Positions 58,419 through 64,000 of a DNA stretch of 64,000 nt are shown here, piece by piece; within the stretch, counting starts at the first letter, position 1, and each line of letters opens with the position of its first letter. The position numbers and the translations under genes were made by a program. The notes beneath the pieces are model-generated. The model did no database searches, was not told where the DNA came from, and saw only the letters and a list, made by a program, of their open reading frames with translations. Source of the stretch: Chloroflexi bacterium bin125 (GTDB lineage: Bacteria; Chloroflexota; Dehalococcoidia; Bin125); the NCBI GenBank assembly GCA_002239025.1, contig MPNM01000005.1, positions 62,001 through 126,000 on the forward strand, written 5' to 3'.

Positions 58419-59078
58419 CTAGTCGCCCACGGTCCCACCGAATGGACTGGCGGTAGGTTCGTCGTCATCTTCGTCGATGACTGGCGGGCCGGTTTCGAGG
58501 GCTCGCATGGCTCGCCAGGTGATGAACCATCGTTGGAATGCTGTCAGGTTGGTGAGTACGGCGAGCAGCCAGAGCACCGGCAGGATCTGCGAAGAGAGCA
58601 GGCCGATTGCCAGGATGAGGACACGTTCGAGCCTTGTCCCGAGGCCGGAACGGATGCTGACACCGAACTCGCCGGCCTTTGAGCGCGTGTAACTGACCAT
58701 CATGCTGCCGAACAGTGCGATGCCGATGAGGACGATCGCGGTTCGGTCGAAACGCTCGGCAGCGCTGTACCAGATCAGAAGTCCGAAGAGCAGCGCAAAG
58801 TCAGCGAGGCGGTCGGAGACGGCGTCGAAGACGGCCCCCCAGTCGGAGGCTTTGTTGGTCGCGCGAGCGACGGATCCGTCGAGCAGGTCGAAGAAGGCTG
58901 CGACCAGCATCACGACGCCGGCCTGCCAGAACATGCCGTAAGCGGCGAACGTGGCCGCGCCGCCCATCCCCAGCAGACCGATCAGCGTCAGGGCGTTGGG
59001 CGTAAGACCGGTGCGCGCAACGGCGCGTCCGAGACGCTCGGAGATGTCAGTTGATATCGAGTGGGGAAGAAGAGACAC
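58419..59078 (-). CDS. CDP-alcohol phosphatidyltransferase (phosphatidylinositol-phosphate synthase-like)
   Basis: 219 residues from a GTG. The metal-binding motif DLLDGSVARATNKASDWGAVFDAVSDRLAD (D-x2-D-G-x2-A-R-x8-G-x3-D-x3-D) is complete. Several membrane helices follow. The short C-terminal acidic tail is extra. It probably makes phosphatidylinositol phosphate or another phospholipid from CDP-diacylglycerol; the location next to a PimA-like gene favours the inositol lipid. It is third in a three-gene unit (60042-61064, 59145-60032, this gene). Confidence 0.88.
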   Translation of the reverse strand: MSLLPHSISTDISERLGRAVARTGLTPNALTLIGLLGMGGAATFAAYGMFWQAGVVMLVAAFFDLLDGSVARATNKASDWGAVFDAVSDRLADFALLFGLLIWYSAAERFDRTAIVLIGIALFGSMMVSYTRSKAGEFGVSIRSGLGTRLERVLILAIGLLSSQILPVLWLLAVLTNLTAFQRWFITWRAMRALETGPPVIDEDDDEPTASPFGGTVGD

Positions 59079-59144
59079 GAGGTCCCCAGAGCAAGCCCGA
59101 CCGCCGTGGATTCACTGTACACAGCCGATGGGCGCGAAACAGGT

Positions 59145-60032
59145 CTAGTCGTAAAACAGTCGTTTACCGATGAAGAAGAACAGGATGGCCAGAGGGATCG
59201 CCGCGGCGACGAGAAGGACAATATTGATGTTGAGACGGTCCCAGAATGGCGGAGATTGGGGCTCGATGTAGGGCCAGTTGAGCAACAGGGCACGTTCGGC
59301 GTTCTTGGTGAACTCCGGAATCAACTGTTCCTCGGGAATGTCGTAGACCTGCTCGAATGCGTCGTAGAACGCGACACCCGACGCGGTCAGCCGGAAGAGC
59401 TCGGCCAGCGCCTCGGTGCCCCAATCCTGGATCATCCAGCTCAGCATTCCGCCGGCCTGACCGAAGTACTTGGCCTGGAACTGCCAGGTCACCGGCACGG
59501 TTTCGAGCTGTTCGACCGAGTAGTACTCCTCGTGATCGAAGATGACGACGGCACCGGCGCGGCGCAGGTAGAAGCCGGGCAGGGGACCCTGCGACCAGAA
59601 ACCGAGCGCCGCTCGTAGCCAGAACGGCACGTCGCCGGCGTAACGCCCGGCTGCGGTCGTAACCAGTGAGTTGGTGACGGCGTTACGAACGTCGGCCGAG
59701 GAGTTGCGCGTCACATGTTGCAGGAACGCGTCCTGCTCAATGCCTTCAGGGAATTGTGACGGGTCGGTTGGATCGCTGCCCTCGGGCCAAACGATGATTG
59801 TCAGTGGCTCCGAGAACGTTGCCTCGATCAGGTCGCTGACGAGGTCGTACGCGCCCTGTCCATGGTCGGCCAGGTCTTCGGCTCGTAGCTCGCCCTGGTA
59901 GTGCCAGAGGATGACGTTGTCGCGCTCGGCCGAGGTCCATTCAACTTCCACCGCCTGCGCCTGGAGCATGCTGGGATGCAGCCAGGCGGCGCAGACCAGG
60001 ACCAAGAACGAGGCGAGGAGAAGACGTCTCAC
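59145..60032 (-). CDS. Secreted membrane-anchored protein related to peptidase MA, no zinc motif
   Basis: 295 residues. Signal peptide (LLLASFLVLVCAAWLHPSML) and a C-terminal transmembrane helix (INIVLLVAAAIPLAILFFFIGKRLF) suggest an extracytoplasmic domain. The pattern VPFWLRAALGFWSQG followed by YFGQAGGMLSWMIQDWGTEALAELFRLTASGVAFYDAFEQVYDIPEEQL resembles the helical half of peptidase MA (gluzincin) proteins, but the HExxH zinc motif is missing, so it is probably inactive. It lies 9 bp after pimA-like and 66 bp before the phosphatidyltransferase gene. Confidence 0.7.
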   Translation of the reverse strand: MRRLLLASFLVLVCAAWLHPSMLQAQAVEVEWTSAERDNVILWHYQGELRAEDLADHGQGAYDLVSDLIEATFSEPLTIIVWPEGSDPTDPSQFPEGIEQDAFLQHVTRNSSADVRNAVTNSLVTTAAGRYAGDVPFWLRAALGFWSQGPLPGFYLRRAGAVVIFDHEEYYSVEQLETVPVTWQFQAKYFGQAGGMLSWMIQDWGTEALAELFRLTASGVAFYDAFEQVYDIPEEQLIPEFTKNAERALLLNWPYIEPQSPPFWDRLNINIVLLVAAAIPLAILFFFIGKRLFYD

Positions 60033-60041
60033 GAGATCAGA

Positions 60042-61064
60042 CTAAGACGGTTGGAGAGATCGATATAGGGAGAGATGCTGTTCGGCGATATGTCGGGCAT
60101 CAAACCGGTCTGCCGACTCTCGTCCACTGGTCGCCAGCCGGGCTCGAAGCGCGGGGTCCTCCAACAGACGCTTGAGCTGCTCGGCCAGTGCCACGTGGTC
60201 GCCTGGAGGTGAGAGCAACGCGGCGCTGCCGTTATCGGACGCGATTCGGTATCCGGAAATGTCTGACGCGGCCACCGGAACTCCTGCAGTCATCGCCTCG
60301 ATCAGGACCAGACCCAGCGCCTCTCCACCGGTAGCGGGAAACGCCGCGCATGTTGCGGTGCTGAGCAGTTTTGGGACTTCATCGTGGGGAACCGGTCCGA
60401 GGAACGTTGTTCGATCGTTGGCGAGTCGCTTTGTCGCCGAAGAAACCGGGCCAGCGACGACCAGTCGAGCATCGGGCAGGAGGTCGAGTGCACGGATGAG
60501 AGTGGGAAGTCCTTTGCGAGGCTCGTCGCGGCCGACGAACAAGATGGTGTCGGGATCAGGACTTCGAGAGACGCTGGAGAAAGGCGCAAGGTCGAGGCAG
60601 GGGAAGATGGTTTCGACTCGGGTGGGCAGGATCTCCGCTGCGATCTCTCGTGAGATGTCGGTGGCACATATTGCCAAGTCGGCGCGACGCAGTAAGGGGC
60701 GCAAGAGTGGGCCGACGCGGCGATAGAAGCTTCCAGCGGCGGGCTCGGCTGAGTGCAGTGTGACCACGTTCGGCGCTGCGTCGGGATGGAGCAGGGCGAG
60801 CGGTCCGATTGAGGGAAGCAACGGCTCCTGGATGTGAAGGATGTCGTGCGGCGTGCGGAGGAAGTCTCGTAACCGGAGTAAGTCCGACGGATGGAACGAC
60901 AGGTCGGCACGCGTCCCACCCATTTGGACTCGAAGGGCCTTTCGAGGCGAGAAGACTTCGGACTGGTGCCCCATCGCATTCAGAGCGTCGGACAAGGCCA
61001 GGGTGTGGACCTGGACACCACCCGGCTGGCGAGCGTCGTAGGGCAGGACATGAGCGATTCGCAC
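60042..61064 (-). CDS. GT4-family glycosyltransferase (PimA-like)
   Basis: 340 residues from a GTG. MRIAHVLPYDARQPGGVQVHTLALSDALNAMGH is the GT4 N-terminal nucleotide-sugar/acceptor loop, and TILFVGRDEPRKGLPTLIRALDLLPDARLVVAG, FPATGGEALGLVLIEAMTAGVPVAASDISGYR hold the donor site with the EALGLVLIEAM motif. It resembles phosphatidylinositol mannosyltransferase (PimA), which glycosylates PI at the membrane. The neighbouring phosphatidyltransferase and acyltransferase genes support a glycolipid role. Confidence 0.82.
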   Translation of the reverse strand: MRIAHVLPYDARQPGGVQVHTLALSDALNAMGHQSEVFSPRKALRVQMGGTRADLSFHPSDLLRLRDFLRTPHDILHIQEPLLPSIGPLALLHPDAAPNVVTLHSAEPAAGSFYRRVGPLLRPLLRRADLAICATDISREIAAEILPTRVETIFPCLDLAPFSSVSRSPDPDTILFVGRDEPRKGLPTLIRALDLLPDARLVVAGPVSSATKRLANDRTTFLGPVPHDEVPKLLSTATCAAFPATGGEALGLVLIEAMTAGVPVAASDISGYRIASDNGSAALLSPPGDHVALAEQLKRLLEDPALRARLATSGRESADRFDARHIAEQHLSLYRSLQPS

Positions 61065-61139
61065 GGGATCGAGGTTATTGCCAGCTTGGGCAGAGGCCAG
61101 ATTTCGAGAACTGGATTATCTCCTGTTATCGTTTGGTTG

Positions 61140-61272
61140 TTGATTTGTGAACGAATGGTTAACGTGCGAGATGAACAAGATGTCGCTTGCCACATATCGA
61201 CATTGATTTGTGGGTGAAGGCGAATAGCGGGGGCTGACGTGCCAATCTCAACTTCAGGGTTTTCGATTTGTG
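61140..61272. other. Three spaced copies of GATTTGTG around a divergent start region
   Basis: TTGATTTGTG occurs at 61140-61149 and 61203-61212, and TCGATTTGTG at 61263-61272, about 60-63 bp apart. The first two lie in the AT-richer gap between the PimA-like and GPP34 genes; the third is inside the GPP34 coding start. Possible regulator sites; the significance is uncertain. Confidence 0.35.
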
Positions 61273-61877
61273 AGCAGTTGTTGCTGCTTGGATTGAGCGA
61301 GCATGGCGCTCTTGACCGGCTGCATGAGGCGCGACTTGATTATGCGATTGCTGGTGCGTCGCTGATTGACCTGTCGTTCGCCGGACGGCTGGACAGCGAT
61401 CCCACTCGTCTGTTCGTGATCGATCCGGAACCGACCGGCGATGAGCTGCTCGATGATGTGTTGGATCGGATTGCGCACTCGGAGCCGAACCAGTCGATCA
61501 ATCACTGGGTGTCGGAGATTTCGGGAGTTGCCCACAATGTTCGCCGCGAGCGGCTGCGACACCTTCGCGCTCGGCCGGTGGTCTGCGAACATCACGGGCG
61601 GCAACAGATTGAATTTCGTTGGGGACAGGACCCGCAGGTCGACCCGGTGGTGGTGGGCTGCATCCGCGAGCATGTAATGGAACTGCTGCACGGCGACGCC
61701 ATTCCGGCGCCCGAGGACGCGGCGCTGGTCAGCCTGGCGCGGGCGAGTGGACTGTTCGACGTGTTGATGTCGAAGAAGGAGCGGAAACGCGTTGAGCCTC
61801 GTGTGCTGCGTCTGGCCAAGCTGGATGTCATCGGCGAGCGTGTGAATCACGCGCTGGATTACGCGCTCGCTGGCTAG
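61239..61877 (+). CDS. GPP34 (GOLPH3-like) family protein
   Basis: 212 residues from a GTG. The start FSICEQLLLLGLSEHGALDRLHEARLDYAIAGASLIDLSFAGRLD is the GPP34 helical core; the C-terminal half (SLARASGLFDVLMSKKERKRVEPRVLRLAKLDVIGERVNHAL) follows the family pattern. Eukaryotic relatives bind phosphatidylinositol-4-phosphate at the Golgi; bacterial functions are poorly known. It is divergent from the PimA-like gene, within a lipid-biosynthesis neighbourhood. Confidence 0.88.
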   Translation: MPISTSGFSICEQLLLLGLSEHGALDRLHEARLDYAIAGASLIDLSFAGRLDSDPTRLFVIDPEPTGDELLDDVLDRIAHSEPNQSINHWVSEISGVAHNVRRERLRHLRARPVVCEHHGRQQIEFRWGQDPQVDPVVVGCIREHVMELLHGDAIPAPEDAALVSLARASGLFDVLMSKKERKRVEPRVLRLAKLDVIGERVNHALDYALAG

Positions 61878-62295
61878 TACGTGTCGACAGGCTCTTGCGG
61901 TGCGTCACGCGGCGCCGATTTGAGCCTCTCGCAGAGACTGACGCGTAAGTCCCCTTCTCCTCCCTGGCCGGGATGATGTTGAAGGCTGGGGAGCTGGCTC
62001 CTTAGTACGACATCTCTGACATACCGTGCCCCGGCTGCCCACCTCTGTCACAAGGCGATTTCTCTCCCCGCAAGAGACTGATGCACAACTCCCCTTCTCC
62101 CCCCTTGCGGGGGAGATGCCGAAAGCCTGCCCCGGGCTTGACCCGGGGGCAGAGGGGGGTCCGCTGTTCGGAAGCCCTATCTGGTCATCATCCGCCGACC
62201 CCCCCTCTGTCACTCCGTGACATCTCCCCCCGCAGGGGGGGAATCGGAGCGCGGGCAGGACGGGAACCGGCTGGCTGTTCTCAAGGTGCCGGGGT
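61878..62295. other. 418-bp intergenic region with MITE-like copies
   Basis: Contains the complete element at 62073-62245 and a solo end near 61933-61965 (AGAGACTGACGCGTAAGTCC then CCTTCTCC). No gene-like frame with a ribosome-binding site was found. The rest is GC-rich sequence without obvious structure. Confidence 0.55.
62073..62245 (-). repeat. MITE-like GC-rich repeat, copy 5 (reverse orientation)
   Basis: Left end AGAGACTGATGCACAACTCC shares 13 bp (AGAGACTGATGCA) with the 15-bp terminal repeat of the 34405 copy, followed by CCTTCTCCCCCCTTGCGGGG. The right arm ends CCCGCAGGGGGGGAATC and lacks the matching terminal repeat, so this copy seems truncated or mosaic. Confidence 0.8.
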
Positions 62296-63051
62296 CTAAG
62301 GACGGCGGCGGGCGAGGAGGGCTTTTGGTGTGGCGGTCATTCCTCGCCATTGCTGACGGAGGAGCCTGCCGGCTCCGATATCTCTTAGGGACGGGTAGTT
62401 GTCCAGTTCGGCGCTGGTTTGGTTGCTACGGAGTGCTTCCCTGAGTGCTTGCGCTCCTCGACCTTGATATCTGGTGATTCCTGCTCCGACTTGTTCGTGG
62501 AAGTGGGCGTCGGAGCCTCCGGTGGTCGGCAGCCTCCAACGCTGATTGGCGCTGATGATTGATTGTCGGCGCCAGCGGGCGGAGGGGATGGGGTTTGCCG
62601 TCTCGACGGCGAGAATCGGTGGATGATCGCCACTCAGTTCGGGCGACATCGTTGCGACCAGGCGATCGATATCACCGATGTTGAGGGCGAACGGCACAAT
62701 GGCTGCCGGGTGAGCGATGATTGCAGCTCCACCCTGTCTCCAGATCGCCTCGATCGTCGCTTCTGCGCTCTTGAACGCTGCTATTGGACTGTCGATCCAT
62801 AGCGCGAGGATGTGTCCCTGGCGACTGCTGACCTCGCTACCGATGATCACTTCGACCGGATGATTGCTCCGCACGGCAACATCGCGTGCTTCGTGTGCAC
62901 CCCGGGTCTGGTCGTGGTCGGTGACGGCGATGACGTCCAGGCTTCGCCGGTGAGCGGCGTCGAGGACGGTTCTGGCGTCATCCATGCCGTCGGAGGCATC
63001 GGTGTGAATCTGCAGGTCGGCGCGTCCCATGGACTCGTTGTCGGCGCTCAT
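62296..63051 (-). CDS. PHP-domain metal-dependent phosphoesterase
   Basis: About 251 residues from the ATG at 63051. PHP motifs: RADLQIHTDASDG (His, Asp), VIAVTDHDQTRG (DHD), the Glu in IIGSEVSS, IIAHPA (His), and GGSDAHF (SDAH). It is probably a Mn/Zn-dependent phosphodiesterase or phosphatase of small molecules or lipids. Its ATG overlaps the stop of the upstream acyltransferase by 4 nt (ATGA), suggesting joint translation. Confidence 0.92.
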   Translation of the reverse strand: MSADNESMGRADLQIHTDASDGMDDARTVLDAAHRRSLDVIAVTDHDQTRGAHEARDVAVRSNHPVEVIIGSEVSSRQGHILALWIDSPIAAFKSAEATIEAIWRQGGAAIIAHPAAIVPFALNIGDIDRLVATMSPELSGDHPPILAVETANPIPSARWRRQSIISANQRWRLPTTGGSDAHFHEQVGAGITRYQGRGAQALREALRSNQTSAELDNYPSLRDIGAGRLLRQQWRGMTATPKALLARRRP

Positions 63052-63980
63052 TGACTTGCGCTTCCGACGGTGTCTCGTGGATGCGGATCGTCCCATGGGG
63101 TGTCTCGGCAAGGCGCCCAGGGCGACTCTTGGACTCTCCAGAGATGCGAATGCTCAGCAATGATGGGCTCGAATAGTCGCGCGAGGTCGGCAGTGTTGGT
63201 GCGCGTATCGAGGGCTCGATTGCCTGTGAGCAAGAGTTCAAGCGTCGGTAGAAAGGTGACATCAAACTGGAGACGATCAGGGCCGGGCCGTCGGACGGCG
63301 TAGAGCGGCAGGATGTCGGCCTCGGCGCGGATGGCCAGGTCGATTGCTCCCACGGGGAATCGAGCCTGGCGGCCGAAGAACGGGACACACGCGCCTCCGC
63401 CCTGGCGGTCGCGGTCCCAAAGGATGCAGACCACTCCACCCTCGCGCAGCGTGCGCAATGCCTTGCCGACGCCAGTCTGGGTCGCCGTGAGAAACTCGAC
63501 CCCGGCGGCAGTACGCGAGGCGTTGACCGCTTCCAAGTGTCGGGGATCATCAAGTCGTTCGACCAGCGCAACCGCGGGGATGTCGAGCGCTGCCAGCGCC
63601 TTGACCGCAACCTCGGGATTGGAGATGTGCGCGGTGGTCAGGACCACGCCACGTCCGGCCTTGTGGGCGTCGAGCAGATGGTCCAATCCCTCAACATGGA
63701 GATGTCGGTCAAGCACTCGTTGAGGGCAGATTGCGGGCAGGAGGGCGAGGTCAACGTAGTACCGGGCCGTCTCGGCTATGACCTCGGCGGCGTCGCGGTT
63801 GAGCTGGGAGGGCGAGTGCTCGGGATGGATGCGCTGGAGATTGTTGCGAATTCGGATGCGCTGTCTCTCCAGAAGCGGAAGGGCGAGAGAGGCTGCGGTC
63901 TCGGCGAAGGCGTAGAGGGTGCGTCGAGGGAGGTATCGGGAGAGCCAGGCGAGGATCGCGAGGGCGGTGGCGGTCGGCAT
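63048..63980 (-). CDS. LpxL/PatA-like membrane acyltransferase
   Basis: 310 residues. The HX4E catalytic motif is in VVLTTAHISNPEVA, followed by VCILWDRDRQGGGACVPFFGRQARFPVGAIDLA, typical of the LpxL/HtrB family; the actinobacterial counterpart (PatA) acylates phosphatidylinositol mannosides. The N-terminus is amphipathic or membrane-associated. Coupled by the ATGA overlap to the PHP gene. Given PimA- and PI-synthase-like genes close by, a PIM-type acyltransferase is more likely than a lipid A acyltransferase. It starts 20 bp inside the window edge; upstream context is not visible. Confidence 0.88.
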   Translation of the reverse strand: MPTATALAILAWLSRYLPRRTLYAFAETAASLALPLLERQRIRIRNNLQRIHPEHSPSQLNRDAAEVIAETARYYVDLALLPAICPQRVLDRHLHVEGLDHLLDAHKAGRGVVLTTAHISNPEVAVKALAALDIPAVALVERLDDPRHLEAVNASRTAAGVEFLTATQTGVGKALRTLREGGVVCILWDRDRQGGGACVPFFGRQARFPVGAIDLAIRAEADILPLYAVRRPGPDRLQFDVTFLPTLELLLTGNRALDTRTNTADLARLFEPIIAEHSHLWRVQESPWAPCRDTPWDDPHPRDTVGSASQ

Positions 63981-64000
63981 GTGGGTATGTTCTCACGAGT

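Follow-up and report, generated by a model that had tools for sequence, protein, structure and literature searches.

In teaching, phosphatidylinositol (PI) mannosides commonly count as a hallmark of mycobacteria and related bacteria, and the question raised here is whether a bacterium of the Chloroflexota carries the genes for such lipids. The stretch concerned, hereafter the window, comprises 64,000 nucleotides of Chloroflexi bacterium bin125, a member of the Dehalococcoidia, and corresponds to C5:62001-126000, where C5 is contig MPNM01000005.1 of assembly GCA_002239025.1 (3.68 Mb, 97% complete). At 58419-63980, the initial annotation recognized a PI-phosphate synthase-like enzyme, a PimA-like mannosyltransferase, a PatA-like acyltransferase, a PHP phosphoesterase and a GPP34 protein, and proposed a locus of the PI mannoside (PIM) type. 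All five genes are there, and the core of the proposal holds: the genes belong to an operon with its own inositol-1-phosphate synthase (MIPS), and the phosphatidylinositol phosphate (PIP) synthase (PIPS) falls in a clade with actinobacterial PIPS, apart from PgsA. As predicted from these genes, the operon probably makes PI and a mannosylated, acylated PI of the PIM1 type.

The complete operon runs MIPS - acyltransferase (AT) - AT - PHP - glycosyltransferase (GT) - PIPS on one strand. The window holds its downstream part; beyond the window end follow acyltransferase 2 and then MIPS, 0.9 kb past the end. The members are as follows.

58419-59078, (-): PIP synthase, class I CDP-alcohol phosphotransferase, 219 amino acids (PF01066, 58.5 bits; NCBIfam, PDB, motif, tree)
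60042-61064, (-): PimA-type GT4 phosphatidylinositol mannosyltransferase, 340 amino acids (PDB, profile, invariant residues)
62296-63051, (-): PHP-family metallophosphoesterase, candidate PIP phosphatase (PF02811 and PF13263)
63048-63980, (-): PatA-type acyltransferase 1, PatA/LpxL family, 310 amino acids (PF03279, 118 bits)
C5:125993-126841, (-): acyltransferase 2, PatA/LpxL family; window 63993-64000 is its 3' end, 8 bases
C5:126944-128059, (-): MIPS, on the strand of the operon and upstream of acyltransferase 2

The glycosyltransferase and ACYLTRANSFERASES of the operon are a PimA-type GT4 enzyme and two tandem PatA/LpxL-type enzymes. The PHP gene, initially given a TTG start at 63111, is better read from the ATG at 63051-63049, whose bases overlap the stop of acyltransferase 1 as ATGA.

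Inositol-1-phosphate synthase and conservation of the operon

Exactly one MIPS is encoded in the genome, and it lies inside the operon, where it supplies the inositol-phosphate synthase that the initial annotation had named as support for its proposal. The protein matches PF01658 with 129 bits against a cut-off of 27, and its closest solved relative is Ino1 of M. tuberculosis (1gr0; 509 bits over 356 residues). Among 61 relatives, MIPS is found in 58 and a match to the PIPS model in 57, and each is present in all 37 of the more complete genomes.

For the comparison of gene order, 40 relative loci were retrieved by the presence of MIPS or PIPS and searched with profiles built from the window genes, so that neither the order nor the gene between was selected for. 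The order MIPS-GT-PIPS on one strand is kept in 38 of the 39 Dehalococcoidia loci holding all three genes, and the locus is therefore not a product of chance; a genome scan gives the same order on all 13 named contigs with the three genes. The smallest version of the operon is MIPS-GT-PIPS; examples are the SAR202 bacterium Ca. Lucifugimonas marina (L156) and a closed genome of 1.5 Mb (L068). Outside the Dehalococcoidia, the arrangement is AT-AT-PHP-GT-PIPS in Thermogemmatispora and GT-PIPS in Herpetosiphon and Thermomicrobium, and parts of the operon are present in Ktedonobacteria, Herpetosiphon, Thermomicrobium and SAR202. Of 300 Chloroflexota genomes, 279 contain MIPS and 298 match the PIPS profile, the latter figure being an upper bound because the profile picks up paralogues too. 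Gene content, gene order and its conservation, together with the catalytic residues and the orthology of MIPS, PIPS and GT with the actinobacterial enzymes, are what the sequences themselves establish.

The gene divergent to MIPS is histidinol-phosphatase-like and belongs, depending on the family, to one of two unrelated folds, IMPase/HisN (L002:10280-11080 (+)) or PHP of the PRK06361 type (e.g. L074:5150-5839 (-)), which may be a case of non-orthologous replacement.

PIP synthase

The catalytic motif of PIPS, D-x2-D-G-x2-A-R-x8-G-x3-D-x3-D, is complete, and its residues D64, D67, G68, A71, R72, G81, D85 and D89 are invariant in an alignment of 22 Dehalococcoidia sequences. Equally invariant in that alignment are R152 and R183, the equivalents of R155 and R195 in the M. 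tuberculosis enzyme (MtPIPS). In MtPIPS these two arginines hold the phosphate group of inositol phosphate, and their mutation severely impairs activity (PMC4634129). A PDB search places the PIPS of M. kansasii, M. tuberculosis and Renibacterium nearest among solved structures.

In a tree of 68 proteins, assembled from sequences other than true archaeal archaetidylinositol-phosphate synthases, the window protein sits in a clade with actinobacterial (M. tuberculosis, M. kansasii, Renibacterium), acidobacterial and other Chloroflexota PIPS, and the PgsA-like proteins of the same class are separate at 100/100. A grouping of the phosphatidyltransferase with PgsA, like the lack of an inositol-phosphate synthase in the genome, would have told against the initial reading; neither was observed. 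Within the PIPS clade the actinobacterial proteins are placed among those of Chloroflexota, and since its deep branches are weak, the direction of any transfer is unreadable.

PIPS-type genes occur elsewhere in other surroundings. Many Acidobacteriota (L095, L097, L098, L102, L105, L117, L143 and others) have a lone gene of this type; these genes make up a single clade, and neither MIPS nor PimA lies in the flanks compared, of up to 10 kb. In L104 and L115, metagenome-assembled genomes labelled Deltaproteobacteria, MIPS and PIPS are adjacent, and their PIPS is sister to the acidobacterial ones.

Glycosyltransferase and acyltransferases

When the single GT sequence is searched against the PDB, its best solved relative is M. 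smegmatis PimA, aligned over the full length with 124 bits against 75 for the next. With a profile built from 23 relatives, PimA scores 367 bits and the next solved family 164; since one of these 23 rows is actinobacterial, the search with a single sequence is the cleaner of the two tests. H104, R179, R183, K184, E248 and E256 are invariant in the 23 relatives and the EX7E motif is present; by the alignment of the PDB search, we take H104, R179, K184, E248 and E256 to be PimA H118, R196, K202, E266 and E274. A quick tree groups the Chloroflexota GTs with PimA, apart from PimB', sucrose-phosphate synthase and GlgM pieces. Among 72,556 plasmid records, the collection from which the reference actinobacterial loci were drawn, tblastn with the GT returned full-length matches only in two actinobacterial PIM operons, one of them annotated HIT - PIPS - PIM acyltransferase - GT4 - NUDIX.

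Acyltransferase 1 matches PatA in the PDB with 52 bits and LpxL with 25. Both acyltransferases keep the H-x4-D/E motif, in the form H-x4-E in acyltransferase 1, and at the position of the second acid of MsPatA (E in ERD) there is Asp. One might speculate that the two enzymes, being of distinct types, acylate different positions.

Predicted pathway and the candidate PIP phosphatase

In the pathway that we infer from these genes, the dephosphorylation by PHP, the identity of the sugar, the sites of acylation and the lipid product are predictions. MIPS would convert glucose-6-phosphate to inositol-1-phosphate, which PIPS would join to CDP-diacylglycerol (CDP-DAG), supplied by CdsA, to give PIP. 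A phosphatase, most likely the operon PHP, would release PI, whose inositol would then receive a single sugar, most likely mannose, from the PimA-like GT4. Fatty acids would be attached to this sugar, and perhaps to the inositol too, by the tandem pair of PatA/LpxL-type acyltransferases, with PI and an acylated PIM1-type mannoside as the expected end products.

The dephosphorylation of PIP is the least secure of these steps. In actinobacteria the phosphatase that turns PIP into PI was called unidentified in 2015 (PMC4634129), and the initial annotation suggested that the PHP protein could fill the step. Linkage adds to the suggestion; as to function, PHP is a candidate. The operon PHP forms a sharply bounded family in the 61 genomes, with 41 copies scoring at least 245 bits and a gap down to 141. 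It is present in 41 of the 61 relatives, and all 41 copies adjoin MIPS or PIPS, by our reading of their positions; it stands immediately before GT in 25 of 25 loci and on 12 of 12 named contigs. Its AlphaFold model (pLDDT 92.9) has the PHP fold and lies nearest to RNase AM, predicted phosphoesterases, Pseudomonas PsfC and an AMP/phosphate-bound amidohydrolase. Conservation extends to the residues of the metal site, except that Gln takes the place of the first His in the genus and a few others. On this evidence, the chance that the operon PHP acts as the PIP phosphatase may be put at about even.

Only slightly less probable is an alternative in which the operon PHP acts as a phosphodiesterase, or serves as the phosphatase of some other step, and an unlinked enzyme dephosphorylates PIP; this is compatible with the rest of the proposed pathway. 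The gene is missing from 20 of the 61 relatives, including the closed 1.5 Mb genome with MIPS-GT-PIPS. Its presence follows that of the acyltransferases (both in 22 loci, acyltransferase only in 2, PHP only in 3, neither in 14; Fisher p = 2e-6, for loci that are not independent and with kinship uncorrected), a co-occurrence that would fit a role in a later step. The sole identified bacterial PIP phosphatase found, Bacteroides BT_1525, is of the PgpA family (PMC9246714). Against this alternative stand the position of every copy beside MIPS or PIPS, the constant place directly before GT, and the other PHP gene, of the PRK06361 type, that many loci lacking the operon PHP carry divergent to MIPS.

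The inositol-monophosphatase-family gene divergent to MIPS was also considered as the PIP phosphatase and is not favoured: it matches HisN with 277 bits (cut-off 275) and is there in this family only.

The sugar and the phosphotransferase donor

Several observations weigh against the proposed pathway. The best NCBIfam model for the window PIPS, PIPSynth (NF045883), scores 122.1 bits, below its cut-off of 170 (pgsA, 32 bits), a value that no protein of the 61-genome class sample exceeds, the best reaching 164 bits. The archaetidylinositol-phosphate synthase model NF040950 comes close, with 118.7 bits for the window protein, and over the PIPS set it gives a better best E-value than PIPSynth; transfer to inositol phosphate is not in doubt from this score, since the archaetidyl enzyme takes the same acceptor. 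For both acyltransferases the top-scoring model is that of the PIM acyltransferase, PRK07920, at 121 and 64 bits, below its cut-off of 209. PIPS and GT of the window family are derived, long-branched forms. Finally, a search for a GDP-mannose synthesis enzyme with TIGR01479 found in this genome only a match of 34 bits to the C-terminal part, below cut-off, the C. glutamicum control being negative too.

This last result, together with the readiness of GT4 enzymes to switch donor and the lack of any NCBIfam model that names the window GT a PimA, would fit an operon that makes PI and a PI glycosylated with another sugar, such as glucose or N-acetylglucosamine, and is PIM-like in architecture only. 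Such a product is unlikely, given that PimA is the nearest relative of the GT by a wide margin and that the PimA active-site residues are kept; a mannosylated PI is still the expected product. It is very unlikely that the phosphotransferase uses a CDP-inositol donor or makes a soluble inositol phosphodiester in the style of the Archaeoglobus/Rhodothermus DIPP synthase instead of using CDP-DAG: the enzyme does weakly match AF2299/DIPPS structures and the model of the bifunctional IPCT/DIPPS (76 bits), and some Dehalococcoidia have AF2299-like paralogues, but the protein has no fused cytidylyltransferase domain, its two inositol-phosphate arginines are invariant, PIPS models and structures outscore those of DIPPS, the tree sets the AF2299/DIPP-synthase group apart at 85/95, and the gene clusters with those of a lipid-modifying GT and acyltransferases.

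The AF2299-like CDP-alcohol phosphotransferase paralogues of some Dehalococcoidia (L182-L188) have no cytidylyltransferase domain in the same frame.

Other phospholipid enzymes in the genome

PF01066, the family of PgsA, PssA and their relatives, has a single member in the genome, the PIP synthase. By our own count, exactly one member is present in 26 of the 37 more complete relatives, including a closed genome (G032). The search is able to detect PgsA, as five sampled genomes yielded a second gene with a strong PgsA-like match. No cardiolipin or phosphatidylserine synthase of the phospholipase D (PLD) type was found in the genome. CdsA is encoded outside the operon (190 bits). With a lone PF01066 member, no PLD-type synthase and CdsA present, PI and its derivatives would be the only CDP-DAG phospholipids of this bacterium, if no enzyme was missed.

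Two PLDc_2 matches were rejected as a source of phospholipids, one lying in a helicase-like protein and the other in a small PLD-nuclease-like protein.

A broader proposition is possible but rather doubtful, namely that PIPS is the sole CDP-alcohol phosphotransferase in many Dehalococcoidia, with PI and acylated PI mannosides as their only CDP-DAG phospholipids, and that the operon PHP represents a new, unrelated type of PIP phosphatase. Should PIPS really be their sole head-group enzyme, such cells would be without phosphatidylglycerol, phosphatidylethanolamine and cardiolipin from the usual enzymes.

Inserted and neighbouring genes

Two further genes lie between the operon members in the window.

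59145-60032, (-): Peptidase_MA-like protein, 295 amino acids (PF13485, 23.5 bits, below the cut-off of 32.4)
61239-61877, (+): GPP34-domain protein, 212 amino acids (PF05719, 122 bits)

The GPP34 gene had been listed within the lipid locus as a member of a family that binds phosphatidylinositol 4-phosphate (PI4P). It is an incidental insertion outside the conserved operon: it lies on the opposite strand, is absent at this place in all compared relatives and has four copies in the genome, and for the same reasons a role as the component of a PI4P-binding system was rejected. The GPP34-domain genes of the genome (G000) are located at C1:72025-72621, C5:123266-123859, C12:397878-398492 and C30:2139-2738; genomes across the genus have 1-4 of them, several in open frames of ~700 codons.

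The initial list of genes, whose five named members are correct, overlooked the Peptidase_MA-like gene between GT and PIPS. Among the loci compared, a gene of this kind occupies this place in the same genus only, and it is probably an insertion.

A second, larger Peptidase_MA-like gene is found near the operon (L002:15050-16546), beside prfB (RF2), and in many other families this pair adjoins PIPS. The joints of the operon are insertion sites in the genus, with different inserts at different joints. Between PHP and GT, one locus of the same genus has a DNA methyltransferase and a restriction-endonuclease-like gene (L087:8846-10550), and between the two acyltransferases another has a pair of genes of no known kind (L085:10471-11578).

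Significance and comparison with known systems

PI occurs in Chloroflexus, and PI acylmannosides are reportedly present in Thermomicrobia, in work by Lagutin and colleagues in Lipids. In Dictyobacter, which belongs to the same phylum as the window operon, PI is among the major polar lipids (PMC12453558), so the idea that PI in Chloroflexota would in itself be new was too strong. A limited search, in which subscription journals were poorly covered, found no literature that ties the inositol lipids of Chloroflexota to genes or covers the Dehalococcoidia, and nothing relevant on PI mannosides in Thermomicrobia, Sphaerobacter or Dehalococcoidia. The kind of lipid is thus already known, even in Chloroflexota; the novelty lies in the operon with its PHP gene and in how widely it is spread.

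The core PIM pathway is indicated across most of the Chloroflexota, including the abundant marine SAR202. Lipid chemists thereby gain a direct target, a PI-hexoside to be sought in cultures of Ca. Lucifugimonas or of other Dehalococcoidia, and enzymologists a candidate for the gap at the actinobacterial PIP phosphatase. Genes annotated pgsA in Chloroflexota genomes of this kind may be PIP synthases.

Among known systems, the actinobacterial PI/PIM locus (HIT - PIPS - PatA - PimA - NUDIX; Tsukamurella NZ_LR134463, Mycobacterium) has the same three core enzymes in one operon, and for MIPS, PIPS, GT and acyltransferase alike the nearest solved relative comes from a mycobacterium or another actinobacterium. 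Unlike that locus, the window operon has another gene order, with MIPS inside, two tandem acyltransferases and PHP, and has no HIT or NUDIX gene; its PIPS and acyltransferases, moreover, score below the curated family cut-offs. The archaetidylinositol-phosphate synthase (NF040950) shares the acceptor, inositol-1-phosphate, but its donor is CDP-archaeol, whereas the host here is a bacterium with CdsA and the operon partners are of the PIM type. In Bacteroides BT_1522-BT_1526 (PMC9246714), MIPS, PIPS and a PIP phosphatase gene likewise lie close together; there, unlike in the window operon, the phosphatase is PgpA-like, the product is PI/inositol sphingolipid, and neither PimA nor PatA takes part.

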